64,000 bases of DNA from Ruminococcus sp. (lineage in GTDB: Bacteria; Bacillota; Clostridia; Oscillospirales; Acutalibacteraceae), in NCBI GenBank assembly GCA_017411835.1, contig JAFQPG010000014.1, positions 1 through 64,000 of the forward strand. The letters run 5' to 3'. Below are positions 4,975 to 25,563 of the stretch, one piece after another. A program made the position numbers and the translations under genes. How positions within the stretch are numbered: the stretch's first letter is position 1; each line of letters opens with the position of its first letter. Under the pieces are notes generated by a model, which was not told where the DNA came from, did not search any database, and worked only from the letters and a program-made list of their open reading frames with translations.

Positions 4975-5010
4975 CAAAAAAACAGCCCAAGCAAGTAAAG
5001 CTTAGGCTGT
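4975..5010 (-). terminator. Rho-independent terminator of the surface-fibre locus
   Basis: Reading the minus strand, ACAGCCTAAGC and GCTTGGGCTGT form a stem of about 11 base pairs with one mismatch and a 7-base loop. A run of seven T follows. It lies 18 bases after the stop of the last gene of the locus (the signal peptidase ending at 5029) and separates it from radC. Confidence 0.8.
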
Positions 5011-5028
5011 AAATAAAACTGAATAATA

Positions 5029-5664
5029 TTAAGTTGTATCAGGTTCAGTGTCAGACGGATTATTTTCTTCTATAGAATTATTCCCCTCTTGTTCATCGGC
5101 TTCTTCACTGTCGTCAGTTTCGTTAGTATCGTCTAAAGAATTGTACGAAACGATAAGTGAAATAAGCTCGTAACCGAAGAGAACAACAATAATAAGAACA
5201 AAGGTAATTAAACCGTAAGGTTTTAAAAAGAAGTTGTATATCCCATTAATAAAAGGGACTTTACACTTCATAACGCCAAGCAACTGGTCCTCGTCCCACA
5301 ACGGGTCAGCTATCGCACCATTTGCAATACCCTGTGTCTGGAAAACATACTCTCCGTTAACATATTGAGGCGTTGCGATAACCTTATGGGTAATGAATTT
5401 ATCAGCAAGGTCCCCCTCTTCGCCTTTATAGGTAACGGTATCACCCATTTTTACCTCTTCGGGCTGTACCTGCTTAACAAGTATGACATCGCCAACAAGA
5501 AGCTCAGGCTCCATACTACCAGAGGAGACTCTGAAAATCTGATAACCGAAAACATTTGGTGCTTCTCCCGAAATGCGGGCATCAAACATAACAACAACAA
5601 CCGCAAGTAAAATCACCAAAAGTACAGTACCTAGAATGTTAAAAACCTTTCTAACCTTATCCAC
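5029..5664 (-). CDS. SipW-type signal peptidase I (first of two in the locus)
   Basis: This 211-residue membrane protease has a membrane anchor at about 9-27 and a second one at about 150-172, followed by an acidic Asp/Glu-rich cytoplasmic tail. The catalytic serine is Ser50 in SSGSMEP. The general base is a histidine, His93 in FITHKV, not lysine, which places it in the ER-like S26B group of SipW. SipW enzymes remove the signal anchors of TasA/camelysin-type proteins. It is the last gene of the locus and starts 9 bases after the small SipW-type substrate at 5674-6276. The start is a GTG with AAGGTGA upstream. Its substrates are probably the neighbouring proteins. Confidence 0.9.
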   Translation of the reverse strand: MDKVRKVFNILGTVLLVILLAVVVVMFDARISGEAPNVFGYQIFRVSSGSMEPELLVGDVILVKQVQPEEVKMGDTVTYKGEEGDLADKFITHKVIATPQYVNGEYVFQTQGIANGAIADPLWDEDQLLGVMKCKVPFINGIYNFFLKPYGLITFVLIIVVLFGYELISLIVSYNSLDDTNETDDSEEADEQEGNNSIEENNPSDTEPDTT

Positions 5665-5673
5665 GCAGTCACC

Positions 5674-6276
5674 TTAATTATACATCAGGTAAAGGTCACC
5701 AGGATTAAATGTTACAGAACCGCTATCGCATTTGACAAACCACTCAACAACCAATTCACCTGTACGAGCTTCGTTTTGAACTCTGTATGAAATGTGAGCA
5801 TTTCTGACAATGTGCAGGTCAGACTGTGTAGCTGAAAAAGTTCTGAAAGAGTTAGTCGGTACAGCAACACCTAGACTAGAAGAACCATTGCTAATTGTAA
5901 AAGATTTAAGATATAGCGAAACCACAGTGTCTTTATCGGCATTCTTATTAGTAACTACAGTTTTATAATAAGCATAACTCGGGGTGACATTTTCGCCTGA
6001 ACCGGAAGCGCTTACAGTAACATTAGCAGAAGAAATTGCTGTGTCACCGTACTGAACTAAACCATATTCAGGAGTACCTTCTGTATTGTTCAAAGTGCCG
6101 CTAAATGTTTCAAATTCACAGTTTTCAGCACGAAGCAACGTGCTATCATTAAACTGGAGGCCTACGCCTTCCTTAGTGTCAGGTTCAAACCATGAGAAAG
6201 AAACCGTAGTCATACCGATGATAAGTATGAGAAACGCCAGTATTAGACAAATTGGTATCAATAATTTACTTTTCAT
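5674..6276 (-). CDS. Small exported protein with SipW-dependent-type signal anchor
   Basis: This protein of about 200 residues has one N-terminal hydrophobic segment ending in VSFSWF, the same block seen in the larger neighbours. Mature residues are rich in Ser, Thr, Asn and beta-prone sequence. A strand VTNKNADKDTVVSLYLKSF resembles the equivalent strand in the paralogues. It has no recognised enzymatic motif and lacks the EGxDPxC motif. The ATG at 6276 is chosen because GGAGGTGA lies 5 bases upstream; an in-frame GTG at 6285 lies within that Shine-Dalgarno. It sits 9 bases before the terminal signal peptidase, typical of a SipW-substrate pair. It could be a minor or tip subunit; that is inferred. 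Confidence 0.7.
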   Translation of the reverse strand: MKSKLLIPICLILAFLILIIGMTTVSFSWFEPDTKEGVGLQFNDSTLLRAENCEFETFSGTLNNTEGTPEYGLVQYGDTAISSANVTVSASGSGENVTPSYAYYKTVVTNKNADKDTVVSLYLKSFTISNGSSSLGVAVPTNSFRTFSATQSDLHIVRNAHISYRVQNEARTGELVVEWFVKCDSGSVTFNPGDLYLMYN

Positions 6277-6296
6277 GGTTTTCACCTCCCGTTTTT

Positions 6297-9200
6297 TTAC
6301 TCAATTTCATTGCTGAAGTTGACAAATTCGCCTGCAACACCTTCGGTGTTAATAGAATAAACAGAGTAAACAATGTTTGCTGTATCTTCTGTAGGTACAG
6401 GAACATTAACTATAGCATAGTCACAGTACTCTTTGTAACCCATATAATCTAATGAATTTGTAAATTTGTTATTCTTAGCAAGATAGATATTCACTTTTGC
6501 TTCGTATCCTGTAGGAATAGTCGCGCGATAGTAACCTGTTGTACCAACATTTTGCATAGTTGCCCAGATTTTTTCATCTTGACTATTAAAGAAGCATACA
6601 CGAATATCGTATTTTGAAACATCAACATTAGTGTTGTTATAAAGGTAGAAGCATCTGTCACCTACATGTGTGTTGGTGCCAAACAGAGTTCTCTGATATG
6701 CTGTAGCTGTTTTGCCGTTAGCATCCTGTGCTTTAACCTTGTAAAACTTAACACCGGACATTGAGTTAACAGCGTACTCCAATGTAAAGTTATTGAGATA
6801 TCCCTGTAATGTATCAGAAAACTCAAAAACATTTGCTTTGCCAATATAACTATATGAACTTACAGGATTATCAGGATCAGCTAAGTTTAATCCGTTGGTA
6901 TCAGATACAAAATACTCAGCCATATAATTCAGCACACCACCATTTAAGATTGTTTGTAGCTGAATATTATTTAAAACACTAGAGTTGTAAATCTTACGAA
7001 TACCGGAGAAATCGGTAATTTCAAAGTTCTCTACACGAATGAGATAGTACTTTTGAGTACCTGTAATAGCCGATGTAACCTTAACAAGAGAAACATCGCG
7101 TGTATTCTCTGTAGGTGTGATAATAAGCTCACCGCTATCGAAGTCAAAAGTACAAGCGTTACCATCTACAACCTCTGCAGATAAAATCTTGTCACCAAAG
7201 TCACAGGTGTATTTGAAAGTAACAGGCGCATTCTTTGAGGTTGAAGCCTGCTGGATAGATGTTACTCTGTCAGTAGCTACATAGTCAGAGTAGTACTGGG
7301 TCCATGTTCCGATTGGATACGGAGTACTACCTGTATTAGCGAAAAATGCATTACAGGTGTTATCAATAGTAGCTGTAGAAGTGTAATTAGTTGATGTGTT
7401 AAAATCAAAGAATACTACGTACTTCTTATCATACGGAATATCGCAGTAGTAAACATTCTGGTCATAATCGTTCTCATAGTAGAAAGTCATACCAAAATTA
7501 TTCTTCGAAAAGTCGCGGTCATCATAAGTATTGCTGACGTGAGCTGTTACGTCACTTCCCCAACCAAGGGAATCAGTGAAGAAAATTCTGCGGTAGCCGT
7601 AAGCAAGAGTACCTTCGAAATTATCATAGCCGGCAGTTAGTGAGATATCTGCAGTTGCAGTAGAGTCAGCTACAATACTAAATGTAGAGCCGTCTGCAGT
7701 TCCAATAGAAGATCCGTTAATCTTAACGTTTGTTACAGTATTGCTCTGGTTGTCTTTCTTTACATTTACAGTAAGAAGTGTACCATAGCCAACAGACTCA
7801 CCGTTAAAGTAATATCTGCCGCTGTCGTCATTTATATAAATAGAGCCGTATTGTGGCTGCTCAATATAAATCTTAGGGTTAGCTACAAACTTTACAGAGT
7901 ATTCAGCGTTTGTGCCCTTGAGTGTTACTTCGAATGTTGCTTTACCATCTGTTGAAATTGATGGAGAAATATCAACCCCGGAGGCCTTAGTAACCTGAGC
8001 ATAGTAGCCCTCTGGCGGAGTAACCACCAAGGTGGTTGCAACTCCGTAATTAAGAGGAGCCGCATGACCGAAATCATACATTACTCCATCTATAGTAAGG
8101 CTTGCACCTTCTTTAGTTTCAGAGGTTTCATCAACATTTACAGTAACAGTTTTGTTCTGTGTAATACCTGCGGTAACAGGATCAATATTAGCAGTTACAT
8201 TAGCTTTTGTACCGATAGACTGGGTTGATGACCAGCTACTACCTGACGCAAGAGATACGCCGGTAAAGCTTGATACATAGTAGCCATTCATTGGGGCTAC
8301 AGTGTATTTAATAGTTGAATTATAGTCAACATAGTAAGAACCAGCTGTGCTTACATCGGTAGAAACACCGTCTTTGTAATAATTAAATGTAATTGCCAGT
8401 GCATTAGTCGGTTTTTCGACTTCAACTGTTGGCTTTACATTAATTTTGTACTCAATAGAAACAGCAGATTTAACATTTTCGATAACAAGTTTATCGGTAA
8501 TATTGCTGTTAAGGTTTGTAAGAACATTAGTGCCGTTTACTTTAAGGTATTCAAAATAACAGTTAACATTAGGTCTTGTAATAGAAACAGAAAGAGGACT
8601 ATTTGACAAAATCTGATTGTCTGTGATTGTTGTACCGTCAGTCATCAATGTTACTGTACCGTTTTGACTACCCTGTCCTTTTGTAACAGTGATAGGATAG
8701 TACACAGTACTTTGAGTTACTGTAACAGTCTGTGATGTAGAGTAAACTGTCTCCCCTGTTTTTGTGTTAGTTGTTTTTACTCTGAAGTAATATGTACCAG
8801 TTGCGTTAGGTGTCCAAGTGCTACCTGAAATATCGGAAAATGCAGAATTGTCTGTGCTTACCTGATATGACTGGGTAATAGACTTAAGCTCGGTGGCGGT
8901 AAACGCAGCACCGGTATCATCGTTAACATATGGATTAGAGAAAGAGATAGACTCAGCATCTGTAATGCTGTCGCTGCTTATAGTAAAGCCGGTATTAGCG
9001 CCATTAAGGTGGTTAAATACCAAGTAATAAGCTGTTGCACTCTTAGGATTTGTTGAGTAAATGCTGTTAGCATAAGCCTTTGCATATACAGTATATGAAA
9101 GTGGATTATCAACATCAGCAGCTATATTTGCCACACTAGGATTAAATGTCTTGTTATTAGCAGAGTAGCCACTTGATGATGCTGTGCTGTAATGTGCAAC

Positions 9201-10547
9201 TGAACCAGTAGGTACTGTTGAAGTAGGGGTTAGTGTGAAACCACCATTTTTAAATACTATATAAGGATTAGCTTTTGTACCGGTACCACTTGTGCCAGAT
9301 GCTACGTTAGATGCAGTAAGTGTCAAAGCTGAAGGAGTATTTGGACGGAAGATAGCCTTGACCGATGCATTGTCGGCAGTTGGTTTAAGCGTAGTAGTAG
9401 CTGAAGTAGTTGAGCTAAGCGTAGCATTTGTCAGACCAGTCCAGTTAGCAAAAGTATAGCCAGTGGAAGGGGTTGCAGTAATAGACACACCTGTAGTCGG
9501 TGAAGCAGTACCGCTTTCAGGAGAAACTGTACCGCCGGTACCGGCAGTAACAGTAAATGTAGGATTTTTCTCAAAACGTGCATAGTAGCTTGTAGCACTA
9601 CTAATTTTATTAACGGTATATGTAGCACTAGTAGACAAACTAGTTCCACTGCTGTTATACCAGCCTTTAAAGGTATAGCCGGAGTTTGCTGTAGCAGTTA
9701 ATGTTATGGTAGAACTGCGGGCAAAAGACGAGTTAGTAGTAGCGTTTGAAGAAGTAGTATTTACATTACTAGAAGAAGTACCGGTAGCGCTAGAAACATA
9801 GTAGCCCGAAATCTTTGCAGTACCAGCCTTAGCATCGTTAGAGTAAGTCGTAGAGCCATAAGAAGCAGAACGAACATATATAGTCTGGGTTAAATTTAAA
9901 GAGGTATAGCTAGTGATACTTGAATTAGTAAGTGTAGCAGAAGAGTTTGCGGTAAGTAATCTATAACCGCTTAAGTTAGAAGAAACAGTCAATACAGATG
10001 TAGAAGCAGGAGCATATTGCTTACGATGAGAAACAGAGTTTCCTTCACCGCCCCATTCGCCATCAGTACCAAATACAGCCAATTGAGAAAGGCCATCCCA
10101 TTTTGGCATTTTTACATAGTACAAGTTAGTGTTTGAGATTTGGGTCATTTGATAGCCCTGTGACCAAGAACTGTGACCAACCATAAGCTGGATACAATTA
10201 TTTGTCCAACCTAAGGTAGAGTTGTCAAAATAGAAATACGTATCAGCTGCAATATTAGCTTTGGACTGAGCAATATCAACATTTGCAGATGTATCAGCGA
10301 GGTCCTCTTTTTCACGTTGTTTAACAGTATTAGTCTGAATTTCTGCAACGAGGGAGCCTTTTTGTGAAGACTGCTGAGGAATAAATGCAGAGAAGGTTGT
10401 TGAAACCAAGCCTACTACGAGTAAAATGAGCATTGCAAAAATTGTGATATTCTTTTGTAATGCAAACATTTTTGCTTGTTTCTTAGCAGCAAGTTTAGCT
10501 TGTTTTTTAGATGCACTTTGCTTTTTTCTTGAATTTTTACGGCTCAT
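6297..10547 (-). CDS. Giant Ser/Thr-rich surface protein with CBM26-like region and InlB-type repeats
   Basis: This 1416-residue protein has a very basic cytoplasmic start (residues 1-30, Lys-rich) and a signal anchor at about 31-54 ending in STTFSAF. A starch-binding-module-like segment at about 103-190 begins TYFYFDNSTLGW. Two divergent InlB B-type repeats at about 230-330 and 330-400 show SGYTFKGWYNSSG, TGYTFANWTG and YYARF. Long beta-rich Ser/Thr/Asn stretches follow. A second module-like segment near 970-1050 (RIFFTDSLGWGSD) and a third near 1310-1400 recall carbohydrate-binding folds. InlB-type repeats are extended surface stalks. No LPXTG anchor is visible. The start follows AAGGAGGTG. 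It is probably a long surface adhesin of the same system. Confidence 0.7.
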   Translation of the reverse strand: MSRKNSRKKQSASKKQAKLAAKKQAKMFALQKNITIFAMLILLVVGLVSTTFSAFIPQQSSQKGSLVAEIQTNTVKQREKEDLADTSANVDIAQSKANIAADTYFYFDNSTLGWTNNCIQLMVGHSSWSQGYQMTQISNTNLYYVKMPKWDGLSQLAVFGTDGEWGGEGNSVSHRKQYAPASTSVLTVSSNLSGYRLLTANSSATLTNSSITSYTSLNLTQTIYVRSASYGSTTYSNDAKAGTAKISGYYVSSATGTSSSNVNTTSSNATTNSSFARSSTITLTATANSGYTFKGWYNSSGTSLSTSATYTVNKISSATSYYARFEKNPTFTVTAGTGGTVSPESGTASPTTGVSITATPSTGYTFANWTGLTNATLSSTTSATTTLKPTADNASVKAIFRPNTPSALTLTASNVASGTSGTGTKANPYIVFKNGGFTLTPTSTVPTGSVAHYSTASSSGYSANNKTFNPSVANIAADVDNPLSYTVYAKAYANSIYSTNPKSATAYYLVFNHLNGANTGFTISSDSITDAESISFSNPYVNDDTGAAFTATELKSITQSYQVSTDNSAFSDISGSTWTPNATGTYYFRVKTTNTKTGETVYSTSQTVTVTQSTVYYPITVTKGQGSQNGTVTLMTDGTTITDNQILSNSPLSVSITRPNVNCYFEYLKVNGTNVLTNLNSNITDKLVIENVKSAVSIEYKINVKPTVEVEKPTNALAITFNYYKDGVSTDVSTAGSYYVDYNSTIKYTVAPMNGYYVSSFTGVSLASGSSWSSTQSIGTKANVTANIDPVTAGITQNKTVTVNVDETSETKEGASLTIDGVMYDFGHAAPLNYGVATTLVVTPPEGYYAQVTKASGVDISPSISTDGKATFEVTLKGTNAEYSVKFVANPKIYIEQPQYGSIYINDDSGRYYFNGESVGYGTLLTVNVKKDNQSNTVTNVKINGSSIGTADGSTFSIVADSTATADISLTAGYDNFEGTLAYGYRRIFFTDSLGWGSDVTAHVSNTYDDRDFSKNNFGMTFYYENDYDQNVYYCDIPYDKKYVVFFDFNTSTNYTSTATIDNTCNAFFANTGSTPYPIGTWTQYYSDYVATDRVTSIQQASTSKNAPVTFKYTCDFGDKILSAEVVDGNACTFDFDSGELIITPTENTRDVSLVKVTSAITGTQKYYLIRVENFEITDFSGIRKIYNSSVLNNIQLQTILNGGVLNYMAEYFVSDTNGLNLADPDNPVSSYSYIGKANVFEFSDTLQGYLNNFTLEYAVNSMSGVKFYKVKAQDANGKTATAYQRTLFGTNTHVGDRCFYLYNNTNVDVSKYDIRVCFFNSQDEKIWATMQNVGTTGYYRATIPTGYEAKVNIYLAKNNKFTNSLDYMGYKEYCDYAIVNVPVPTEDTANIVYSVYSINTEGVAGEFVNFSNEIE

Positions 10548-10600: not shown

Positions 10601-12883
10601 TTATTCTGTGATATTTAAGTAAATGCCGTTTGCAAGGTCGTGATTATACGAGAATATAGCACCGTCCTGTGCAGTTACAGAAGAGTTTGGATACGCTGTG
10701 TATCGGTAATATAGCCGGCTTATACTGCCGCCAAAATCTTCTGTATACCAGCGATAGTCATCGAGTTTTATCATAGGCATCCAGTTAATCTGGTCAGTAG
10801 AATACTCAAGTTTTGCACCTGTAACATTGGTTAATGTATCATTAACCACGCCATTAGCAGAACCGTCTACAACGACCGCGATATGCCACTGACCTGTATT
10901 TCTACCCGTTAAGTAATATGTATCACTTGAGTCACGCAGAGCGCTGTTTACGGTATTCCAAGTTGAACCCGCCTGCGTCTGTGTAGGAGAATCATAATAC
11001 TGGAACGCAAGTGCATTAGCGGTTGCATTGCCAGCGTCCTTCGTAACATAAGCAAAGTAATGTAAATCAGTTTTATCTTTAGTCATATAGTAGTAGGTTG
11101 TACCATCAGCAAAACCTACTTTATATCTGTAATTGCTATTCAAACTTGCATCAAGCAACTCAGTAGAAAGACATATTTTTTCGACCTTTCCCCAAGTGCC
11201 GACACCAGAGGTTGTGCCTGCTTTAGAGAAATTTGAAGTAAAGTTATTTACAACGCCACAGTCAGAATAGCCAAGAGCTGTGTAAATGTAGTTACCATCG
11301 TCATCCTTGTTAGAATCAGAAGCGTTCCATACACACTTGATATTATTACCACATTTTTTATCTGACGAATACATAAACTTCAACGAGTTTATACTATCTG
11401 CAAGATAATATCCTTTCCAGATATCGTTTGCAGAATCATAATACATAGTTGTAGTTTGAGTTTCATAAAGACCATAGTCGTTTAAGTAAAGAGAGCCTTG
11501 ACCGCCTTTTACTAAAAACTGATATGCGTCTCTATTATAGGCTTTTTCAGAAGCAAATGTTGTGCGGTCAACAAACTGGATAAGCTCGACCTTCTTATTG
11601 CCCCAAACGCCAAAGCCGATTGACGCATCAGTATAGTTCTTCGTTACGCTAAGTGCCTGATAGATGTAGGAACCTGCATCGTTTTGTACAGGTTTTGTAT
11701 TTTCATCAAATGCCCATTGATATGTTATAACAGGCTGATTTGATGAGCTAACGCTACCGTAGAAAAAGTAGCCTTTTGTAGGATTTGCTGAAATATCATC
11801 CAAAATATCCTTAGATATACGAGGTGCTGCGTTACCATCACCGTCAGATGTAATCCAGCGAAGTGCTCCACCCTCATTTTCCGTAATCATCATAGGAACG
11901 ATTTCTATGGATGAACCACCTGTATAGCAGAAATACAAACTGCTGTCAGGATCTTCGGTAGTCATCGGTTTACCTTCATGACCTGATACGGTGCTAAAGG
12001 TATAGTCATCGAACATAATGGTCTGGAAGTCAGACGCAGAGTTCTTAAATACAAGATTAATCTTGATAGTACAGCCAAGAGCTGCTTTCTTTTCATCAGC
12101 TGTAAGAGCCAACCAGTTAGGGTCTTTTTCTTCAAACCAGATTTTAACATTGACCTTGGTGTCCTCGCCGCCATGGGTCGACTTAAATACAGCATGGCTC
12201 TCTGTGCTATTACTATTGTAAACGTAGTTAGAACCTTTAAGTGTTTTAGGAATGACTTCCTGTATACCACCAGCAGTTGAATTAACCGCACCGTAGTCTC
12301 TGCTTTCTTTTGAGAACATCAAAGAGGTTTTTGATGTTGTACCGGATGTAACGCAAATACGCATTGCGTCGGCAATAGTAGTCTTAATCTCATCAGTAAC
12401 AGCCTCATCTTCAGATGTTACTGTAAAGATGTTAGCAGAATCAAAGAAGTAGTTATAATTTTTGACAGTCGCGTTGTGCACTTGAAAATCAAAATTGTAG
12501 TAACTTGTGTTATAGTCTGTTGTATCACCTTTGCGGTAGGTTGACTGTCCATCCTTTTTGAAATAGAAGTTAGTACCATCTGGACTAGAGCATTGCGCAA
12601 GCTGATAAAGAGCAGTTGGTCTAAAATAAGTAGACAAGTCAACAAGAGTTGTACCTGACTCCTGGACATCAAAACGATAGTTTAGATTAGAAGAAATCGG
12701 CAGATTCTCACCCTTGATTACGAGTGATGAGGACGACTCGATCCACGCAAAGGTTGTAAGACCTAAAAGAATAATACACTCGATAAGTGCCACAACAGAA
12801 ATTATTAAATTGTTTTTATTTTTGAAAAACTTTTTATCAGTAAAGTATTTTTTTAGATTAAAAATATCTTTTACTTTTTTCAT
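10601..12883 (-). CDS. Large TasA-like surface protein, paralogue of the CBM26-bearing protein
   Basis: This 760-residue protein has a basic N-terminus, a signal anchor at about 25-48 ending in TTFAWIE, and a large extracellular part. It shares the family marks: a strand YNFDFQVHNATV (about 129-140), AMRI at 173-176, and KIWFEEKDP at 247-255, a degenerate form of the EGxDP motif without its cysteine. The region after about 270 contains two blocks with a conserved WG-x-x-x-V-x-L-type strand, such as GVWGNKKVELIQF. The neighbouring 1050-residue protein has a matching block (GLWGNHDVQLVTV). It has no CBM26 insertion. The start is preceded by AAAAGGAGGTG. Confidence 0.7.
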   Translation of the reverse strand: MKKVKDIFNLKKYFTDKKFFKNKNNLIISVVALIECIILLGLTTFAWIESSSSLVIKGENLPISSNLNYRFDVQESGTTLVDLSTYFRPTALYQLAQCSSPDGTNFYFKKDGQSTYRKGDTTDYNTSYYNFDFQVHNATVKNYNYFFDSANIFTVTSEDEAVTDEIKTTIADAMRICVTSGTTSKTSLMFSKESRDYGAVNSTAGGIQEVIPKTLKGSNYVYNSNSTESHAVFKSTHGGEDTKVNVKIWFEEKDPNWLALTADEKKAALGCTIKINLVFKNSASDFQTIMFDDYTFSTVSGHEGKPMTTEDPDSSLYFCYTGGSSIEIVPMMITENEGGALRWITSDGDGNAAPRISKDILDDISANPTKGYFFYGSVSSSNQPVITYQWAFDENTKPVQNDAGSYIYQALSVTKNYTDASIGFGVWGNKKVELIQFVDRTTFASEKAYNRDAYQFLVKGGQGSLYLNDYGLYETQTTTMYYDSANDIWKGYYLADSINSLKFMYSSDKKCGNNIKCVWNASDSNKDDDGNYIYTALGYSDCGVVNNFTSNFSKAGTTSGVGTWGKVEKICLSTELLDASLNSNYRYKVGFADGTTYYYMTKDKTDLHYFAYVTKDAGNATANALAFQYYDSPTQTQAGSTWNTVNSALRDSSDTYYLTGRNTGQWHIAVVVDGSANGVVNDTLTNVTGAKLEYSTDQINWMPMIKLDDYRWYTEDFGGSISRLYYRYTAYPNSSVTAQDGAIFSYNHDLANGIYLNITE

Positions 12884-17155: not shown

Positions 17156-17180
17156 ATTATTGCTCCTTTCTGTAAAATTT

Positions 17181-19703
17181 TTAGTTATCTAAATATTCTT
17201 CGCCAAGTTCCAAAACCTTTTCCGGTTTGTAGTCAATAAGCACTCTGGCCTTTTTAACAAAAGCTTTTGCCTTCTTCTTAGCATCTTTAAGTTGTTCGTT
17301 ATAAGTCTGCTCGAGAGCTTTCTTCTCTGCATTAAGACGAACAGTATATTTTTCTTCGTCTGTAAACGCGCAAGCGTTCAAGACTTCTTCGTCTTTCTTA
17401 GCAAGTTTTTCTTCAAAATCAGCTTTCATAGCTTCAAATCTTGCTTCGAAATCAGCAGTAATAGAAGCGATAGCTTCGTCTTTTTCGAGCTTTGCTGTAG
17501 CAACAGTCTGCTCCATCTGCGCAATTTTCTCTTCTTTTGCTAAAAGAGTAGCAACCTGAGAGCTTACAGTATTATTAAGTGCAACAGCCTCTGCTTTTGC
17601 TTCATTATATCTTGCTTCATACTTAGCAGATTCTTTCTTGCTGTTTTCAACTGACTCATCGCAGTTATCAATCTTAGACTGCAAAGCAGATTTTTCTTCA
17701 TTTAAGGTTGCAATAATTGCATCCTTAGCGGAAAGCATATTGAGGTGAACTCTGATTTGGTGATTAAGTTCATCTTCCTGTGCTTTGTTATCGCTGATTT
17801 GAGCGTTTAACTGATCTACTTCTTGTTGATGCTTGTCGTATTTATCAACAAGCTCGCTGTGCTCAGCTTCTAAAGTTGTAAGCTGAGTAGAAAGGTTTGA
17901 AATCTGCTCGTTTGCTGTAGAAAGCATTGAAGTCTTTTCAGTAAGCTCGGCACTTTGAGTGCTGATTGTAGCTTCGTGCTGAGCAACTGTTGATTTAAGA
18001 CTGTCGTTTTCAGCATTAATTTGTGTATTAGTATCACGAAGGTCGTTGATGCTTGAATTGAGCACAACAATTTGTGAAGACTGATCTTCAATAGTTTTTG
18101 ACTGAGAAGCAACTGTATCTTCAAGCTCTACGATATGAGCCTTATGCTCTTCAATCTGAGCGTTAAGCTCAGAAACAGTAGCTTCAAGACCAGATACCTT
18201 ATCGTTGAGGAAGTCTATTTGTGTAGCCTGCTCTTTGATAGTCTGAGCCTGCTGTGCAACAGTTTCTTCAAGCTGTGCAATCTTTGCGTTGAGCTCATCA
18301 ATCTTAGCGTTTAATGCGTCGATAGTGTTGTTGAGTTCAACAACCTTAGCCTCAAGAGTAGCAATAGTAGCAAGCTGTGCTGTGATGATAGCAGCCTGTT
18401 CCTCAACCTTAGCTTCGAGCTGTGCAATTTTAGCTTTGCATTCTTCGAGTTCTGTCTCGAGCTCTGCAACACGCTGGAGAGCAACTCTGAGTTCTTCTTT
18501 AGTTTCTTCGAGTTCTTTCTCTCTGACTTTCAGGAGAGTTTCTAACTCTTTAATTTTAATATCTTTTTGTCTGACCTTTTCCTTTTCCTGGTCAAGCTCA
18601 GTGGTGAGCTGAGCAATGATAAGCTCACGGTCTCTGACCTCTTTAAGGCGAATAGCCATTTCTTCGCGACGAGCTTCGTAAATCTGCTCTTCAAGCCATT
18701 TAGCCTGTTCTTCCTCAGGTCTGTTAGCTTCAGCCGCTCTGCGTTCGTTTTCAGCAACATACTCAGCGTGGAGCTTATCTTTAAGGGCTTTGTTGGTACT
18801 GATAGTCATAACAAAGTGTTGGAAAGCCATCACTTCATAAAGCTCTTTCTGAGTATCTGTATCCATTTCGCCGGAGAACTCATTAGCCTCAACAACATAA
18901 CCGGTCTTACGATAAGCTTCAATAAATGACCATAACTCGTTACATTTAGAGAAGTTAGGGTTCTTTTTGATACAGTTTGTTTTATTGATAGGAGAACGAA
19001 CCTGAATACAACCTTTGAGCTGCTGGATAAGGTTTGTATTAACAAAGTCCGTAAGCATCATACGAATACGCTCAATACGCTCGTAGTCAGTAAGATTAGA
19101 AATATCCTCATCTTTATCAATCTTATCACGGTCGTGTGATTCAGCCGCATAAGTCAGCTGGAATGCGAACATCTGATTGTTAAGATTAGCGTATCGCTTC
19201 ATCTCAATGTTCGTATAAGAGTCGTTTGGAGCTTCTTTTAAGGCTCTAAAACGAGCTTCAACGAAAGAAATTGTTTTATAAATAAGTGTGTATAAAAATC
19301 TGTTTTCATATGTAGCGTAGCTATCTTCACGGTGAGTGTTGAGAAGCTTTGATGGTGAAACTAAACCGTCAGCATCAACCTTTTGAATCAAGCTTGTGTG
19401 CTGAGTTAAGTGTCTTACAGCTTCTTTAGTAACCTGCTTAACCTTGTCTACACGGTCAACCTCTTCATAGGTCTCAATGAATTTTCTATCTTCACGGATG
19501 GCTTTGTCCATATAAGGAAGTACTTCCTCAATCTTTTCAACCCATTCCATATCGATGACACGGTTGTATGCGTTACCGGCAAGAATATCCTTTCCGGTAT
19601 CGCTATCTGCGAGAGCCCCTGTTAAATATCCTCTTGTATAGTCGCCGTCCAGTGTCTGCTGCATTTCAGCATACGCTCTGTAATATCTGCTATAGTCTAA
19701 CAT
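17181..19703 (-). CDS. Cytoplasmic long coiled-coil protein with DUF2357-like head, partner of the AAA+ ATPase
   Basis: This protein of about 840 residues has no signal or membrane segment. Residues 1-310 form a globular head containing an ENRF motif (133-136) inside YENRFLYTLIYKT, typical of DUF2357 proteins that accompany McrB-like ATPases. Residues about 320-800 are almost pure heptad coiled coil. It includes three consecutive repeat units beginning at about 429, 478 and 527 (49, 49 and 42 residues) and a lysine-rich end. No PD-(D/E)XK nuclease motif is visible, unlike McrC. The ATG at 19703 is preferred because GGTGAG lies 7 bases upstream; the ATG at 19718 has no well-placed site. It lies 41 bases after the AAA+ gene, so the two probably act together. 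Confidence 0.7.
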   Translation of the reverse strand: MLDYSRYYRAYAEMQQTLDGDYTRGYLTGALADSDTGKDILAGNAYNRVIDMEWVEKIEEVLPYMDKAIREDRKFIETYEEVDRVDKVKQVTKEAVRHLTQHTSLIQKVDADGLVSPSKLLNTHREDSYATYENRFLYTLIYKTISFVEARFRALKEAPNDSYTNIEMKRYANLNNQMFAFQLTYAAESHDRDKIDKDEDISNLTDYERIERIRMMLTDFVNTNLIQQLKGCIQVRSPINKTNCIKKNPNFSKCNELWSFIEAYRKTGYVVEANEFSGEMDTDTQKELYEVMAFQHFVMTISTNKALKDKLHAEYVAENERRAAEANRPEEEQAKWLEEQIYEARREEMAIRLKEVRDRELIIAQLTTELDQEKEKVRQKDIKIKELETLLKVREKELEETKEELRVALQRVAELETELEECKAKIAQLEAKVEEQAAIITAQLATIATLEAKVVELNNTIDALNAKIDELNAKIAQLEETVAQQAQTIKEQATQIDFLNDKVSGLEATVSELNAQIEEHKAHIVELEDTVASQSKTIEDQSSQIVVLNSSINDLRDTNTQINAENDSLKSTVAQHEATISTQSAELTEKTSMLSTANEQISNLSTQLTTLEAEHSELVDKYDKHQQEVDQLNAQISDNKAQEDELNHQIRVHLNMLSAKDAIIATLNEEKSALQSKIDNCDESVENSKKESAKYEARYNEAKAEAVALNNTVSSQVATLLAKEEKIAQMEQTVATAKLEKDEAIASITADFEARFEAMKADFEEKLAKKDEEVLNACAFTDEEKYTVRLNAEKKALEQTYNEQLKDAKKKAKAFVKKARVLIDYKPEKVLELGEEYLDN

Positions 19704-19744
19704 GGGGGCGCTCACCATCCTTTAATTGAAGTTAAATTCTAAAA

Positions 19745-21277
19745 TTACATCATCTTCTGAAGCATACGAACATATTCTTTACACTCGTTCATATTTTCTT
19801 TACCAAAGAGCTGGTCAAGCTGTTGTACAAGACCATCAATTTCATCACGGATATAAGAAATGTTTAATGCTTCGAATTTTCTGAATACCTTTTTAGCAAG
19901 GCAATAGTCAATACCGTCAACCTCTGTACCGCCGCAACCAACGTAAGCAGGTACGAAGTCCTTCATCTGCTTCATAACACGGTTACCAAACGCAATTCTG
20001 AAATGCTCGATAACATAGTCGTCGAGGATCTCAATCTTCTTGAGGTTTTCTTCAGAAATCGGGTTAGCGGCAACAGCTTCTTCTAAAAGCTTTGTAAGGT
20101 ATTTATAGTTAATAAAGATAGGTTCTGTGTCAGGTGCTTCAAATGGCTTACCTTTTGTATTAATATCGATAGGCAGAGCACGGTCGTAAACCTTATCTGT
20201 GATAGCGAATGTAGAGTCGTCGTTGTTAGCTGTACCAACATACCAGATGTTGTCAGGTACAACGATTTTACCGTCTGTAAAGTGTGCAGGGTCATCAGGC
20301 CATGGAGCTGATACGAGCTCGATAATCCACTCGTCGTGAGCAGGCATTTCGAGGATAGACAGCATCTCAGCAAAGTAATACTCGACACGAGCGATGTTCA
20401 TTTCGTCGAGGATAACAACGTAAACGTTTTCGTTATATGAAGCCTCATAAAGAGCACGTAAGAGTTCAGTTTCATTGTACTTCTTTGTAAATTCGTTGAA
20501 GTAACCGAAAAGCTCAGTACGGTCACGCCATGAAGGCTGAACTGATGCGATAATAGCAGGGTTTTGAACAAACTTACCAAATGCGTATGGAAGGGAAGTT
20601 TTACCGGTACCGGAAATACCCTGTAAGATAATCAAACGGGTTGAAGCAAAACCTGCGATAAAGCAACGTAAAATCTTAATATCATAAAAGAGCTTAAGTC
20701 TTGAGCAAGCAAAGTTTCTGAATCTGTCGCAGAACTGCGGAAGTGTGATTTCCCAATCGTACTCTGGTGGCTGATAATCTGCCCACTCTTCGTCGATAGC
20801 GATAAGCTTGTTGAAACGACCGCCTTTTGCTTCTTCTTCGCCGTTGTTTAAAGCTTCCATTTCTTCGCCTGTAAGCTCAGAAATTTCGTTAGGGTTAAGA
20901 CCAATCTGTGAAACTTTCATAGAGAGGATCTTGTCTTTCTCAAGATTAAGACGCATAACCTCTTTAGTTAAAGCGTTAACTTCGTCTATAAGGTCATTAG
21001 TATCCTTAGCTTTTCTCTTAAAGCGTGCAAATTTCTTAAGAGATGTAACAATAAAGAAGATAATGATACCAAGCACAGCAGCAAGCAACACGATTGCGAT
21101 AACCGCAATAACCCATGTTAAGCCTCCGAGTGTTGTAGTATAATTTTCAATAATTTTGATATATTCAGGGAAGTTGAACATACCCAGAATGCCCTTTCCT
21201 ACGCCAACAATAGCGCCCCAGATAGAGCCAAAGAACTGACCTAAAAAGTCAAATAAAAATTTGAAGATGGTATCCAT
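19745..21277 (-). CDS. Membrane-anchored McrB-like AAA+ ATPase
   Basis: This 510-residue protein has two hydrophobic segments at the N-terminus (about 8-34 and 52-80), a basic and coiled linker (81-150), then an AAA+ domain. Walker A is GISGTGKT at 220-227 and Walker B is VVILDEMN at 287-294. A sensor-like GTANND follows, then an arginine in YDRALPIDI. The LDEMNIARVEYYFAEML stretch is typical of the McrB/AAA_5 group. McrB normally drives a restriction nuclease, but here the ATPase is tethered to the membrane. It sits between a signal peptidase gene and a coiled-coil gene. I infer a motor for assembly or export of the surface proteins. Confidence 0.8.
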   Translation of the reverse strand: MDTIFKFLFDFLGQFFGSIWGAIVGVGKGILGMFNFPEYIKIIENYTTTLGGLTWVIAVIAIVLLAAVLGIIIFFIVTSLKKFARFKRKAKDTNDLIDEVNALTKEVMRLNLEKDKILSMKVSQIGLNPNEISELTGEEMEALNNGEEEAKGGRFNKLIAIDEEWADYQPPEYDWEITLPQFCDRFRNFACSRLKLFYDIKILRCFIAGFASTRLIILQGISGTGKTSLPYAFGKFVQNPAIIASVQPSWRDRTELFGYFNEFTKKYNETELLRALYEASYNENVYVVILDEMNIARVEYYFAEMLSILEMPAHDEWIIELVSAPWPDDPAHFTDGKIVVPDNIWYVGTANNDDSTFAITDKVYDRALPIDINTKGKPFEAPDTEPIFINYKYLTKLLEEAVAANPISEENLKKIEILDDYVIEHFRIAFGNRVMKQMKDFVPAYVGCGGTEVDGIDYCLAKKVFRKFEALNISYIRDEIDGLVQQLDQLFGKENMNECKEYVRMLQKMM

Positions 21278-21350: not shown

Positions 21351-21404
21351 AGTCGGTTCTGATTATTTCCTAATTTAGAGGGCTTAATCAATTACGTTTT
21401 AAGA

Positions 21405-22241
21405 TTAAGCCTGTGGCTCGTCTGACTTTACTTCTTCCCCATTTTCTGCGGAAGTTTCTTCAGTCTCGATTTTATCGGAAGTTTCACTTACTTCCTGAGC
21501 CTTTTTAAATGCCATAAATTGTTTAAACTGTTCGTATTCTTCAGCAGACATCTGTGGCGCAGAACTGTCTGCATCATTAGATTTATTATTTTCGTTTTCT
21601 TCCTGTGCTTTTGCAGCCTTGTACTGCACAGCGTTGATAACAACCTTAACCAGTACATAAAGGAAGAAGAAAATCATTGGTAAAAGGATGCAAAGGAAGA
21701 AGCCTAGCTGTGAGTTAATAAACTCATAAACCTTGCCAACACCTTTTAACACAGTACCCTGATAGTCATCAGAATAGAAAACTGCACCGATTTTATCGGC
21801 GGTAAGATATCTTTCAACTACTTCTTGATCAGGTAATTGGGAAACTTGACGATTGTCGCCCTGTGTCTGATAAACTGCGTAACCATTATGCTCAGCAACA
21901 TCAACGATTCTATGACAGATAAGCTGTTCGCCTAAATGTTCATTGCCCTGTAAATAGCCTTTATATGTAACGATGTCGCCTTCTTCGTAAGTCTTTTCTA
22001 AATCAAATTTAGTAGCTTTGCCAATAATGACATCGCCACTTTTGAAATCGCCACCCTCATAATCAGGTGAGCCGCCATCCATAGAATCAGACATAACGAC
22101 TTGAATTGTGTAACCAAAAACGGTCGAAATACCGGAAGATTTAGAAGTTAGCGCAAGAGTAGCTACTAAAACAGACACAACTAAAACCAAAACTATTAAA
22201 ATGTTAATTATTGTATTAAAAATACCCTTTACTACCTTCAT
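21405..22241 (-). CDS. SipW-type signal peptidase I (second of two in the locus)
   Basis: This 278-residue membrane protease has an N-terminal anchor at about 10-32 and a second one at about 180-203. A charged cytoplasmic tail rich in Glu, Ala and Lys follows. The catalytic residues are Ser53 in MSDSM and His110 in LICHRI, with Asp129 in QGDN completing the S26B signature. A short Gly/Asp-rich insertion follows the serine (DGGSPDYEGGD), where the first peptidase has a plain MEP. That difference suggests a different substrate range. It follows the major-subunit gene after a 326-base gap filled with palindromes. The start is clear, with AGGAG upstream. Confidence 0.9.
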   Translation of the reverse strand: MKVVKGIFNTIINILIVLVLVVSVLVATLALTSKSSGISTVFGYTIQVVMSDSMDGGSPDYEGGDFKSGDVIIGKATKFDLEKTYEEGDIVTYKGYLQGNEHLGEQLICHRIVDVAEHNGYAVYQTQGDNRQVSQLPDQEVVERYLTADKIGAVFYSDDYQGTVLKGVGKVYEFINSQLGFFLCILLPMIFFFLYVLVKVVINAVQYKAAKAQEENENNKSNDADSSAPQMSAEEYEQFKQFMAFKKAQEVSETSDKIETEETSAENGEEVKSDEPQA

Positions 22242-22261
22242 AAAAACTCCTAAAAAAATAA

Positions 22262-22530: not shown

Positions 22531-22567
22531 ATTCAATTAATAATATCAGTAAAATTTTCAGTTAAAA

Positions 22568-23407
22568 TTAAGCAACGAGTTTGAAGTCAACTTTAACGTC
22601 ACTAATAATCTGAGCAGCGTTAACGCTACCAACGTTGTCAGAGTAGCAAGCGGCATCCTGACCATCGAGGTAAACGTAAACTGTTACTTTCTTAGCAGCA
22701 TTTTCTGCTGTTGAAAGACCTGTGATACCACAATCTAAGCTCTTAACGCCGGTAGCAGCTTCAAGAACTGTAAAGTCTGCAGTTGTACCATCAACAGCTG
22801 TTAATACGCCGTGTGCACCAGCGATGCTTGTAGCGTATGTGCCGAGAACCTTACCGTCAGGACCAGCAATAGCAACACGGATAGCAGAAAGCATTGAAGG
22901 GTTGCCAGTAGCAGCTGTGATTGTTACGCCTGTAAGCTGAATTTTAGCAGCATCTTCTGCAGCAGAACCGTCAGAAAGTCTGAAGAATACGTCCTCAGCA
23001 AAGAAAGACTCGTCAGGAGCAGCACCAAGAGTAACACCATCAGCCTTGCTGTTTTCCCAGCTCTTTGAATCAGCAGCAGCGATAGTTGTCATTGTACCGT
23101 CAGCCTGATTCTGTGTAACTGGCTGGAGGTCTAAGATAGTTTTGTCAGGACCATAAGTTTTAGTCTCTGCACCCTCTTCAGAAGTAACCATAGCATTTAA
23201 GTATGCTGTGTGGCCCCATACTGGGTGAGTTTCTGTCTTAATAACAAGACCTGAAGAAGCTGTTGTTTTGAACGCAAGACCCTGAGCGTCAGCATAAGGG
23301 TTAGCTGCGAACCATGCAAATGTTGCAGAACCAAGAGCTACTAAAGCTACGAGGAGCATAGCAACTGAAGACAATAAAGCCTTCTTTCTGAATGTTGTGT
23401 TTTTCAT
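22568..23407 (-). CDS. Probable major TasA-like fibre subunit
   Basis: This 279-residue protein has a textbook SipW-type signal anchor: basic MKNTTFRKKA, a hydrophobic core to residue 27, then ATFAWF (28-33). The mature part is Ala/Thr/Val-rich, acidic and beta-prone. It carries AIRVAI near 174 and YLDGQDAAC, a variant of the W-x-E-G-x-D-P-x-C motif, near its end. It looks like the main subunit for four reasons. It is compact with no added modules, its codon use is more GC-rich than its neighbours, it has a strong Shine-Dalgarno (AAGGAGGA), and it has its own candidate promoter and a leader hairpin. The nearest known families are TasA and camelysin. The role as fibre subunit is inferred. Confidence 0.75.
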   Translation of the reverse strand: MKNTTFRKKALLSSVAMLLVALVALGSATFAWFAANPYADAQGLAFKTTASSGLVIKTETHPVWGHTAYLNAMVTSEEGAETKTYGPDKTILDLQPVTQNQADGTMTTIAAADSKSWENSKADGVTLGAAPDESFFAEDVFFRLSDGSAAEDAAKIQLTGVTITAATGNPSMLSAIRVAIAGPDGKVLGTYATSIAGAHGVLTAVDGTTADFTVLEAATGVKSLDCGITGLSTAENAAKKVTVYVYLDGQDAACYSDNVGSVNAAQIISDVKVDFKLVA

Positions 23408-23456
23408 GAGAAATTCCTCCTTAAATTGTATCCCCCAAAAACACGCAGGGGATTGT

Positions 23457-23485
23457 TTAATAAATAAATATATTTAACTTTGCAA
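23457..23485 (-). promoter_or_regulatory. Candidate internal promoter for the major subunit gene
   Basis: On the minus strand TTGCAA and TATTAA are 17 bases apart. Transcription would start near 23450, giving a leader of about 43 bases. The leader holds a stem ATCCCC/GGGGAT (about 23430-23453) just before the ribosome-binding site, which could stabilise an abundant message. The -10 box matches the consensus only partly. Confidence 0.45.
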
Positions 23486-23546
23486 GTACGCCTTACAAAG
23501 AAAATACCAAAAGTAAGCGTCCGAGTACACCGTCACAAATAATGCA

Positions 23547-23706
23547 GGCTACGCACCTCGGCTATTAAAGTATCAAGCCTCGTTGTGCTGCGCTGTTCCT
23601 CAAAAGTCCACAGTCTCGCATTGATTTTCTGCGTAGACTTCGTCTACTACGAAAATGCAGACTCATCTTTGACTTTATGAGGGCTACGCACCTCGGCTCT
23701 TAAAGT
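23547..23706. repeat. Pair of 25-base direct repeats flanking an intergenic insert
   Basis: Copies at 23547-23571 and 23682-23706 differ at one base (GGCTACGCACCTCGGCT, then A or C, then TTAAAGT). The right copy runs across the stop codon (23700-23702) of the upstream gene. The unique DNA between them contains the perfect hairpin GTAGAC-TTC-GTCTAC at 23633-23647. No open frame or terminator is visible. The arrangement suggests insertion or duplication at the 3' end of the gene ending at 23700. Confidence 0.65.
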
Positions 23707-24551
23707 TCTTCACCTTCAACATTGAAGAACCACTGCATCTTAACAAAACCACCCATAATGTCGTTGATGCACTCAGGGTCGTTACCCTCAATCCAGGTAA
23801 CGATTGTGTACTTAACGGTTTCGTCAGGCTTGATGTTCTCAGTTTTGTCGTTAAAGATAACGTAGTCTTCGAGGTTTAAATCGTCAGCACCTTCGACAAA
23901 TTCGAAATTAACGATATCCTCAAGCTGTGACTTATCACGATTCTTCTGAGCGTAGATAGTAGGCTCACCGTTTTTATATACCATGATTCTAAGTGCTTCG
24001 TCTGCGTTTTTAGCGATACCAGTAAACTGGAGCGTGCTTTCGTAGTCGAGAGTCTGTGAACCATTGTTTGTAAGATAGAAGGTGTAAGCTAAGTAGTTTT
24101 GTCCGTTGTGGGAACCATCAGCCTCGTCATTTAAGTCTTTTGGCAACCAATCATATGTAATGTTAGTAACTTCGGTTACGTTTTGCGCGGAGAGCTGAAG
24201 CGCAGGGTCATTAACAGAACCATCTTCGTTTAAAGATTCGCTGATAACGATGCCTTCTTTTGCCGCACCGTTTTCAACAGAAATAACAAGGTCACCTATA
24301 GTGGTAAGCAACCAACCAACAAACCATAAGATAAGTAAAACAAGAACAGCGACAACCATCGCAACGCCCAAGCGACGTTTCCAGATAACTGACTTTGCGA
24401 GGTCTTTACTGTCTCTACGAGCAGAATAGCGGTTGAAAATACGGCTTGTACCAGCACGATTAACCTGCGCTTCGCCTTTGTTATCTAATCTCTCAAGCTC
24501 GTGCGGAGAGAACGGCTCATTATTCACTTTATTTTTTCCGAAAATAGGCAT
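23700..24551 (-). CDS. Membrane-anchored TasA-like protein with a cytoplasmic head, possible fibre base
   Basis: This 283-residue protein has a hydrophilic, basic cytoplasmic region (about 1-60), one membrane segment (about 63-88) and an extracellular domain. The extracellular part has a YTFYLTNNGSQTLDY strand, ALRIMVY and WIEGNDPEC near its end, so it belongs to the same family as the other subunits. It lacks the TFAWF cleavage block, so it probably stays in the membrane and could anchor the assembly. The ATG at 24551 is chosen because GGAGG lies 8 bases upstream; an upstream GTG lies inside that site. It follows the first gene by 53 bases. Confidence 0.7.
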   Translation of the reverse strand: MPIFGKNKVNNEPFSPHELERLDNKGEAQVNRAGTSRIFNRYSARRDSKDLAKSVIWKRRLGVAMVVAVLVLLILWFVGWLLTTIGDLVISVENGAAKEGIVISESLNEDGSVNDPALQLSAQNVTEVTNITYDWLPKDLNDEADGSHNGQNYLAYTFYLTNNGSQTLDYESTLQFTGIAKNADEALRIMVYKNGEPTIYAQKNRDKSQLEDIVNFEFVEGADDLNLEDYVIFNDKTENIKPDETVKYTIVTWIEGNDPECINDIMGGFVKMQWFFNVEGEEL

Positions 24552-24604
24552 CAGAGCCACCTCCGTAAACTATGTAAGACTATATACTATATATAATGTA
24601 ATAA

Positions 24605-25417
24605 TTATCCGAATGCTACGTTGTTCTCGTCAGTACCGGAGAACAGAAGATTGAATGTAAGATTTGCAGACTGAACATCGTCGTCACACTGCGGGTCGTT
24701 ACCCTCTGCCCAAACACGAATAGTAACCTTGATTGGTTCAAGCTCGTTTAAGTGGAAAAGACGAGTGTCGTTAGAATAGACCATCGGGGTCTGTAAATCA
24801 AAGGTTGTCTGTCCGTTTACAGCAGAGCCAGATTTATTAGGTTCATAAATTACAGCGTCGCCACTATTTTCAAAGCTGACACGAACAGCCTGTACAATCT
24901 CAGCCTTGAGACCTGTCTCGGTTGTAGAAACAGAGGTGCCTTCCATATCATTGGCATCGTCACTTGACAAATGCACCCACATATCTTTTGAAGCAATAAA
25001 GTAGCATTCAAACTCAAGATACGAAGTTTCGTTTGGCTGACGGGTCGAACCATTTTCACTTTCAAAAGCAATACCGTTACGAGTAGTAACAGGATCTAAA
25101 AGCTGGTCAGCTAAAGTATCCTTACCTTTTGAGGTAAGATAGCCGTTAATCATTTCATTGGTTATTGTCTTTTTATACAGCTCGATATCAGAACCGTGGT
25201 TTTCCATATCAACTCTTAAATCAACACCGGTTGTAATATCCATCTGGATATTCTCAACACTTGAAAAGCTATTGAGCGTAAACCAAGCCATAGTAGATGT
25301 AATAAGCACCAACAACGCAATGATGCACAGCATAAATGTAGTCTTGCGTTTTATCCTGACTTGTGCTTTGTTAAGTTTTTCGATTTCCAACAGAAGTTGC
25401 TGTTGATTTTTATCCAT
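24605..25417 (-). CDS. First gene of the locus: TasA-like exported subunit
   Basis: This protein of 270 residues has a charged cytoplasmic start (EIEKLNKAQVRIKRK) and a signal anchor ending in TMAWF at about 42-46. The mature domain has the family strand YLEFECYFIAS, AVRVSF and WAEGNDPQC (near 236-244). The start at 25417 is preferred because GGTGAT lies 6 bases upstream; the in-frame ATG at 25429 has no ribosome-binding site. It lies about 110 bases downstream of the best promoter of the locus. Its role is probably structural, with no enzyme motif. The same core pattern in several neighbours argues for paralogy by duplication. Confidence 0.7.
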   Translation of the reverse strand: MDKNQQQLLLEIEKLNKAQVRIKRKTTFMLCIIALLVLITSTMAWFTLNSFSSVENIQMDITTGVDLRVDMENHGSDIELYKKTITNEMINGYLTSKGKDTLADQLLDPVTTRNGIAFESENGSTRQPNETSYLEFECYFIASKDMWVHLSSDDANDMEGTSVSTTETGLKAEIVQAVRVSFENSGDAVIYEPNKSGSAVNGQTTFDLQTPMVYSNDTRLFHLNELEPIKVTIRVWAEGNDPQCDDDVQSANLTFNLLFSGTDENNVAFG

Positions 25418-25534
25418 AACAATCACCATTAAATATATATATAAATATGTATAAGACTATTCAAGAGAAGGTTAAATCAGCAGTAAAAACCTAGAAAAGG
25501 GCGCACTGACAGACCTTTACAATATAACACTGTA

Positions 25535-25563
25535 ATTATATATCAAGATTTGGTAAAAAGCAA
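25535..25563 (-). promoter_or_regulatory. Main promoter of the surface-fibre locus
   Basis: On the minus strand a perfect TATAAT (25535-25540) is preceded after exactly 17 bases by TTGCTT (25558-25563). Transcription would start near 25528 and leave a leader of about 110 bases before the first gene at 25417. The leader is AT-rich and shows no clear operator or riboswitch. The rest of the gap, about 25570-25750, is AT-rich and shows nothing else I can support. Confidence 0.7.

Follow-up and report, generated by a model that had tools for sequence, protein, structure and literature searches.

The 64,000-nucleotide stretch of Ruminococcus sp. DNA analysed here (the window; contig JAFQPG010000014.1 of assembly GCA_017411835.1, from a genome of 1.72 Mb in 20 contigs) carries a cluster of twelve genes at 5029-25429 on the minus strand, designated g1 to g12 in transcription order, which combines a predicted motor pair with SipW-type signal peptidases and a series of exported proteins. 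We give about an even chance to the reading that this locus is of the CoCoPALM type, that is, an NTPase pair derived from McrBC, tied to the membrane and dedicated to SipW-processed TasA-like surface proteins, which would build a motor-coupled filament or sheath that here binds starch; within this reading both the formation of the fibre and the role of the motor are what we infer. All twelve genes listed in a preliminary description of the locus were recovered on one strand, and the long coiled-coil protein and the membrane AAA+ ATPase that it reported correspond to g6 and g5, respectively.

The g5 product (19745..21277; this and all further cluster coordinates refer to the minus strand) is, according to McrB profile matches, motifs and transmembrane (TM) prediction, a membrane-tethered McrB-like AAA+ NTPase, in which a TM segment at residues 59-77 with predicted N-out orientation is followed by a coiled coil recognised by eye and then by the AAA+ domain. 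Hydropathy indicates one strong segment only, with no lysine or arginine in the preceding 15 residues and seven in the following 15, and from this asymmetry the N-terminus is predicted to lie outside and the AAA+ domain inside the cell. When the profile of ten g5 orthologues was compared with PDB, all three matches at E <= 0.01 were McrB proteins of distinct sequence (best E 2e-6). The Walker A motif GISGTGKT was found in 95 of 96 locus copies, the Walker B motif DEMN in 93 of 96, and the sensor motif NNDD in 94 of the 95 copies where the motif was found. In register the NNDD of the cluster copies corresponds to NRDE in a CoCoNuT-like locus (L043) and fits the NxD type as it is described in part of PMC11090510; the letters NNDD satisfy NxxD too, and HMMER aligns this motif with McrB without a gap.

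The neighbouring gene g6 (17181..19718) encodes a protein with no predicted TM segment, which is characterised through its orthologues as the likely McrC-like partner, composed of a DUF2357-type N-terminal domain and a long coiled coil, the latter yielding many non-specific matches. The DUF2357 model (PF09823) was matched by 11 of 36 aligned g6-type proteins at E <= 0.001 (best 2.1e-14), and the protein of locus L039 exceeds the curated cut-off of the model. A nuclease was looked for with Pfam in g1, g3-g12 and the g6 relatives and with NCBIfam in ten of the twelve proteins including g2, and no match was obtained. Hence the nuclease that CoCoNuT and McrBC restriction systems hold in the McrC homologue or in a neighbouring gene was not seen by profile search, where a cryptic fold is possible.

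Conservation of the arrangement extends far outside the genus. Genes were called on 98 loci, 18 from family genomes and 80 from a profile search of genome contigs, the latter being the best 80 of at least 557 relatives listed, and the sample leans to close relatives. L035 and L107 were left out because their motor escaped the simple gene caller, and of the remaining 96 loci four (L034, L057, L073 and L108) repeat the motor sequence of another locus, which leaves 92 distinct ones. Upstream counts are based on the 63 of these that extend 4.5 kb or more upstream, downstream counts on the 79 that extend 3 kb or more downstream. All 63 have a SipW-type gene upstream of the motor, 58 have T3 (the g3 type) there, 34 have T1 (the g1 type) and 24 have an EAL-domain gene. 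T2 (the g2 type), for which a position before or after the motor was accepted, was found in 60 of the 63 (missing in L056, L115 and L123), and a g6-type gene follows g5 in 77/79. Before removal of the repeats the corresponding figures were 66/66 for the SipW-type gene, 63/66 for T2, 61/66 for T3 and 80/82 for the coiled-coil gene. The recurrent order in many loci, including those of the genus, is T1, T2, T3, SipW-type peptidase, AAA+ and coiled-coil gene, T7 and further genes up to T11 and a second peptidase, or the same with T2 after the first peptidase. A search for this gene order in relatives had been proposed in the preliminary description, and its outcome is an order kept in the genus and beyond. 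Deviating arrangements were found in L114 (Bacilli), L115 (Bacillales), L117 (Erysipelotrichaceae) and L123 (Firmicutes), while L106 (Tenericutes) is near the usual order; loci L151-L170, several of which repeat contigs of L049-L083, were used for gene order and leaders only. The motor is present in 40/60 genomes of the genus and in 26/31 of the near-complete ones; in the class it was detected at E <= 1e-60 in 21/391 genomes (13 with a whole-model match, the rest without the N-terminal part or cut), and in a draw over the phylum in 1/299, the source genome only.

In other lineages the order is EAL, T2, T3, SipW-type peptidase, AAA+ and coiled-coil gene, followed by proteins of 2000-3600 amino acids (aa) or by other peptidase genes. 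The EAL-domain gene heads the cluster there, as at L036:11093-11902 (Pfam EAL E 1.7e-46), L033:1554-2303 and in similar genes, and by eye the residues which we take to be the EAL catalytic motif look replaced; such a protein would suit the role of a c-di-GMP receptor controlling the system. The 2000-3600-aa proteins stand in place of g7-g11 in L033, L034, L093, L097, L100, L103, L104, L109, L111, L116 and L124, and they have signal-like N-termini by eye, several of them being cut at the end of the stretch; the one scanned, from L093, had no Pfam match. A further observation is a similar protein of 74-76 aa closely after the downstream SipW-type gene (L039:9383-9613, L038:6211-6438 and L041:10137-10361), the L039 copy of which had no match in Pfam.

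Both peptidases of the preliminary description were recovered. The g12 product (5029..5664) matches the archaeal-type signal peptidase model TIGR02228 with 87.2 bits, above the cut-off of 51.85, and the SipW equivalog model with 90.8 bits, below the cut-off of 190. The g4 product (21405..22241) has two predicted TM segments and gave no peptidase match in the Pfam search, and it is assigned as a divergent SipW-type signal peptidase by an orthologue from L032, which aligns with g12 at 32% over 160 aa (E 1.7e-16). Catalytic serine and histidine residues were also counted in the SipW-type proteins by pattern, but the patterns were too loose and the results mixed, and these counts were discarded.

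A motif of TFAWF type was found by pattern search in seven of the eight exported or anchored proteins of the window, g2 being the exception, so that these counts of the preliminary description hold. Its view of the motif as an anchor probably does not: the motif resembles a signal peptide of SipW type and is probably such a signal rather than an anchor. By pattern the motif is present in 28/28 aligned members of T1 and 32/32 of T3 and in 0/27 of T2; the signal model TIGR04088 was matched weakly, by 5/28 and 7/32 members of T1 and T3 at E <= 0.5. LPxTG was found in none of the twelve cluster proteins, and the membrane anchor is likely g2, the sole exported subunit devoid of the TFAWF motif.

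The exported companions of the motor appear to be largely one paralogous family, called T here, which is remotely TasA/camelysin-like. It includes g1 (T1; 24605..25429), with the SipW-type signal STMAWF and a weak similarity to TapA (TIGR04087, E 1e-4, under the cut-off), g3 (T3; 22568..23407), with the signal SATFAWF, assigned by motif and profile comparison and a candidate for the major subunit, and g7 (T7; 16115..17155), with the signal ATLAWF, assigned by profile comparison as a paralogue of g1 and g3. The T domain is also present in g8 (12924..16076), which according to Pfam and T-profile matches is an exported protein carrying inserted CBM26 modules, and in g9 (10601..12883), at aa 22-256, with the signal TTFAWI. 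In the small exported g11 protein (5674..6285; signal VSFSWF) the similarity to the family is marginal, and the exported g10 protein of 1416 aa (6297..10547; signal TTFSAF), in which Pfam recognises Flg_new_2/InlB B-repeats, is not assigned to it. In hhalign comparisons, where the signal region was removed from at least one side, the T1, T2 and T3 profiles with the signal region cut gave mutual probabilities of 97-98%, and the T7 profile gave 96-100% with T1, T2 and T3, although it is a weaker profile, being iterated and overlapping T1, and its alignment to T2 spans 31 columns only. The alignments were selections: A2 comprised the window protein and 26 of 61 listed, A3 the window protein and 31 of 64, A4 the window protein and 27 of 37, and A5 the window protein, that of L039 and 34 of 64.

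The g2 product (T2; 23700..24560) differs from these proteins in its predicted topology, in which an N-terminal tail is followed by a TM segment at residues 64-82 and by a remotely TasA/camelysin-like ectodomain; six lysine or arginine residues within the 15 before the segment place the tail in the cytoplasm by prediction. The ectodomain was compared with a camelysin/TasA reference set (M73) of 15 PF12389 proteins from other genomes and matched it over 143 columns with a score of 33.1, a probability of 45% and an E value of 2e-4 for one comparison, while 100 column shuffles reached 15.4 at most. An earlier control with 30 shuffles had included one value of 131.4, for which a parsing fault is suspected, and the control with 100 shuffles used a stricter parser. 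T2 was found at E <= 1e-12 in 19 of 150 family genomes and the motor also in 19, this number being 22 motor-positive genomes minus three (G029, G048 and G106) whose matches of E 1e-12 to 1e-23 were not counted as orthologues and of which only the G048 locus (L044) was inspected. Both genes occur together in 18 of the 20 genomes having either (Fisher p = 4e-21 over the 150 genomes, kinship ignored). The two exceptions are incomplete, namely G019 (59% complete), with the motor only on a contig that ends just upstream, and G029 (75% complete), with T2 and the weak motor match. By topology and co-occurrence T2 is proposed as a candidate for the membrane-anchored base subunit that couples the exported proteins to the motor.

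The starch-binding modules in the locus and the dockerin amylase with the same module type, both of which had been described, are borne out by profile search. The g8 protein matches CBM26 with 100 bits (cut-off 28.1) in three stretches; its T domain is split into aa 18-175 and 464-529, with CBM26 at 208-277 and 335-404 between, which places these two modules within a loop of the fibre-type domain, and the third lies at aa 929-1006. An amylase with dockerin and CBM26 is encoded at 58925-61225, and the source genome holds at least 36 CBM26 matches, which suggests heavy investment in starch binding. Ruminococcus bromii, a starch specialist, has an amylosome in which CBM26 modules are combined with dockerin amylase; compared with that system, CBM26 is placed here in a SipW-type, fibre-like subunit and not in an enzyme or scaffoldin. 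Loci were classed as T7-type if they span at least 9 kb, have a T7-like gene downstream and lack an EAL gene, a definition that takes in a few loci outside the Ruminococcus-like group. Of the 40 distinct loci of this type, 23 encode CBM26 in an exported protein downstream, against 0/18 EAL-type loci. The count is strict, in that the downstream protein had to show T similarity or a motif of SipW type (25/42 before removal of repeats); a looser count of any same-strand gene in the locus gives 27/42. By Pfam the module was found in 25/50 large proteins scanned, 3 from the window and 47 others, mostly chosen from 148 listed. At the genome level CBM26 is present in 17/150 family genomes, in 10/19 of the motor-positive and 7/131 of the motor-negative ones (Fisher p = 1e-6, kinship ignored), an association that includes the CBM26 copies inside the cluster itself. 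Because none of the EAL-type loci carries the module, starch binding, as judged by these profile matches, recurs as a feature of one lineage and does not belong to the core function.

The CoCoPALM clade was named in 2024 and is uncharacterised, being treated in a short passage of PMC11090510 that promises detail in a later paper. The locus resembles the clade, as outlined in that passage, in a McrB-like, NxD-branch GTPase that bears a predicted TM segment and a putative coiled coil, in a coiled-coil DUF2357 partner and in signal peptidase genes alongside. The McrB-like GTPase domain with NxD motif is found in the g5 family; the DUF2357 partner with coiled coil is seen via the g6-type orthologues, and signal peptidase genes accompany all 63 distinct loci. 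As a candidate for the FtsB-like segment of TM and coiled coil, g5 offers a TM segment predicted by hydropathy and a coiled coil judged by eye. The passage in the main text names no cargo, while in the cluster the cargo would be the TasA-like paralogues, one of them uncleaved, with CBM26 inserts, and EAL genes and giant proteins occur elsewhere. The core kind thus already has a name; what goes beyond that passage is its cargo, the candidate for coupling and the decoration with starch-binding modules. In the open-licence literature CoCoPALM was found named only in one relevant work (the eLife paper and its preprint); searches of the same literature gave no paper that by its title links SipW or TasA to McrB or CBM26, and none on SipW with an AAA ATPase, on SipW and TasA in Ruminococcus, or on signal peptidase and biofilm in Ruminococcus bromii.

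Known systems that were compared share only parts of the locus. The tapA-sipW-tasA operon of B. subtilis, as far as it is covered in the relevant part of PMC9674648, has a SipW-type peptidase with its signals and TasA-like proteins, and the donor-strand model is borrowed from it; it differs in having three genes, no motor and no carbohydrate-binding modules. The C. perfringens sipW-bsaABCRSD operon likewise produces a SipW-dependent extracellular polymer from one operon with several secreted proteins, but in the operon as described in the pertinent part of PMC7395162 there is no AAA+ or coiled-coil gene. With McrBC and CoCoNuT the cluster shares the motor domain and the activating DUF2357 domain, as these are presented in sections of PMC11090510, and it differs in the lack of a nuclease match, in the membrane tether and in the surface-protein context. 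The earlier statement that known TasA/SipW operons have no motor is not supported as it stands, since the name CoCoPALM was given in 2024 to motors of McrBC type with a link to signal peptidases.

The mechanism proposed for the locus proceeds from the polymerisation of TasA by an N-terminal donor strand, the first of which TapA may supply (from part of PMC9674648), and from the interaction of the DUF2357 domain of McrC with McrB, whose GTPase it stimulates (from part of PMC11090510). Cleavage by SipW would free the N-terminal donor strands of T1, T3 and T7, which would polymerise outside the membrane as TasA does, and the uncleaved g2 would supply the first, membrane-held donor strand and anchor the polymer. 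A ring of g5, its pore occupied by g6, would spend NTP on the g2 tail, and this action would start, drive, hold or release the polymer, which the larger subunits g8-g10 would decorate, the CBM26 loops of g8 binding starch and complementing the secreted dockerin amylase. In its full form the proposal says that a McrBC restriction motor has become an energised assembly machine for donor-strand fibres, in which NTP hydrolysis acting via the g2 tail would start, extend, retract or release a TasA-type polymer, giving a starch-gripping organelle to rumen and gut Ruminococcus; we offer it tentatively and think that it may well be wrong.

Several observations weigh against the CoCoPALM-type reading and against this mechanism. 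The fibre, the NTPase activity, the cleavage and the starch binding are all predictions from sequence. T1 and T3 match the M73 set only in the signal and the next strand, PF12389 was absent from the source genome in a direct HMM search, and a PDB search with the T1, T2 and T3 profiles gave nothing convincing for TasA; because the ectodomain match is limited to T2, the family is called remotely TasA-like and is not a proven TasA family. In the motor pair, Pfam gives no DUF2357 match for g6 itself, and the link is made via orthologues only; in the N-terminal 50 residues of ten g5 orthologues only M1, F11 and F34 are invariant. In PADLOC, g5 hits the candidate-defence model PDC-M26A (E 2.4e-37), and the coiled coil of g6 gives weak matches to 16 models. 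The association with CBM26 is uncorrected for kinship, and the module is absent from 9 of the 19 motor-positive genomes. The extracellular BsaA polymer of C. perfringens needs SipW, and BsaA polymerises even when made in E. coli (both from part of PMC7395162), hence polymers of this kind can form without a motor. The dedicated starch-holding fibre or sheath of the preliminary description therefore stands in part: a conserved surface-protein system with peptidases, TasA-like paralogues, motor and CBM26 was found, whereas we only infer the fibre, and starch belongs to one lineage.

Other functions may be considered for the same genes. The g5/g6 pair may be a regulator or sensor that controls whether T proteins are processed, secreted or released, taking its information on the state of the envelope from the N-out part of g5 and from the tail of g2. 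The predicted cytoplasmic tail of T2 would suit such a role, as would the roughly 50 residues of g5 before the TM segment, which resemble one another in the closer relatives and by prediction lie in the membrane or on its outer side, and the EAL-domain gene found upstream in part of the loci suggests a signalling input in other lineages; however, no convincing receptor, kinase or regulator match was obtained in the window's cluster, and the retention of Walker A, Walker B, the sensor motif and a McrC-type partner goes beyond the needs of a passive sensor, so that we regard this explanation as unlikely, though still of appreciable probability. The exported proteins may also form a coat, an S-layer-like sheath or independent adhesins instead of a fibre, with a motor serving export or turnover. 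The remoteness of the TasA homology and the strong variation in subunit size and number between lineages, including the giant proteins, agree with this. The missing LPxTG motifs speak for a polymer, as do the several TasA-like paralogues of each cluster, almost all of which carry SipW-type signals like the subunits of known SipW-dependent polymers, and the probability of a coat or adhesins is rather small in our judgement.

Anti-phage defence of the CoCoNuT type with a surface part is disfavoured and seems to us very improbable. It has one strong positive datum, the PDC-M26A match of g5, and the CoCoNuT-like locus L043 does hold a related AAA+ protein and a DUF2357 protein, the DUF2357 match being weak (E 0.005). 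This locus (G110:C303:1-14262) comprises a VWA-like gene recognised by eye, a protein kinase, a helicase and a McrB-like AAA+ gene, and it lies in a fragmented assembly that also holds the surface cluster, so both McrBC relatives may occur in one cell. According to the relevant part of PMC11090510, CoCoNuTs without a McrC nuclease always adjoin HEPN or other nucleases, and the missing nuclease match in g6 and the other genes thereby weakens the defence reading. The presence of the system in most near-complete genomes of the genus, and its constant partners, a peptidase and exported proteins, are also at variance with it.

The transcription of the cluster had been described as running from one promoter to one terminator, of which the terminator is well supported, while the promoter is a consensus match only and the single transcript a possibility. 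The intrinsic terminator at 4982..5010 has 11 pairs, 6 of them G-C, and a T tail. The promoter-like TTGCTT-N17-TATAAT upstream of g1 (25535..25563) was recognised by eye, and promoter-like sites within 16000-26000 number 21 against 20.9 in shuffles, which means no enrichment; the g1 leader resembles those of L151 (80% over 143 nt) and L152 (87% over 60 nt). The intergenic gaps are 9-127 bp apart from the two next to g3, which measure 292 and 326 bp, and given these wide gaps one transcript over all twelve genes is a candidate only. A short hairpin seen by eye at 23430..23453 lies directly upstream of g3 and adjoins its ribosome site (leader 23408-23480); this leader is alike in L151, L152, L025, L058, L064 and L101, and it may indicate a message that is stabilised or separately started for a major subunit. 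The 326-bp gap between g3 and g4 (22242-22567) contains several stems, and the nearest relatives are similar there only in part; a dispersed repeat was considered for this gap and rejected, since 286 of its bases found only their own copy in the genome. Rfam at gathering thresholds gave no match in the cluster, and elsewhere in the window only 6S RNA and tRNA. The divergent gene at 25816-26700 on the plus strand, radical-SAM-like by eye, matches the PADLOC candidate model PDC-M51A (E 1.2e-8), which is probably a generic enzyme match.

McrBC motors are known restriction enzymes. SipW-type peptidases and TasA-like proteins constantly accompany a membrane-tethered McrBC relative in which no nuclease was matched, and this suggests that clostridia have a surface structure assisted by a motor. 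The probable cargo and, in T2, a probable coupling subunit are named here, neither of which is given in the published CoCoPALM passage of PMC11090510. The presence of CBM26 inside a fibre-type subunit provides a testable hypothesis, namely that a Ruminococcus-type lineage may hold starch in this way beside its dockerin amylases.

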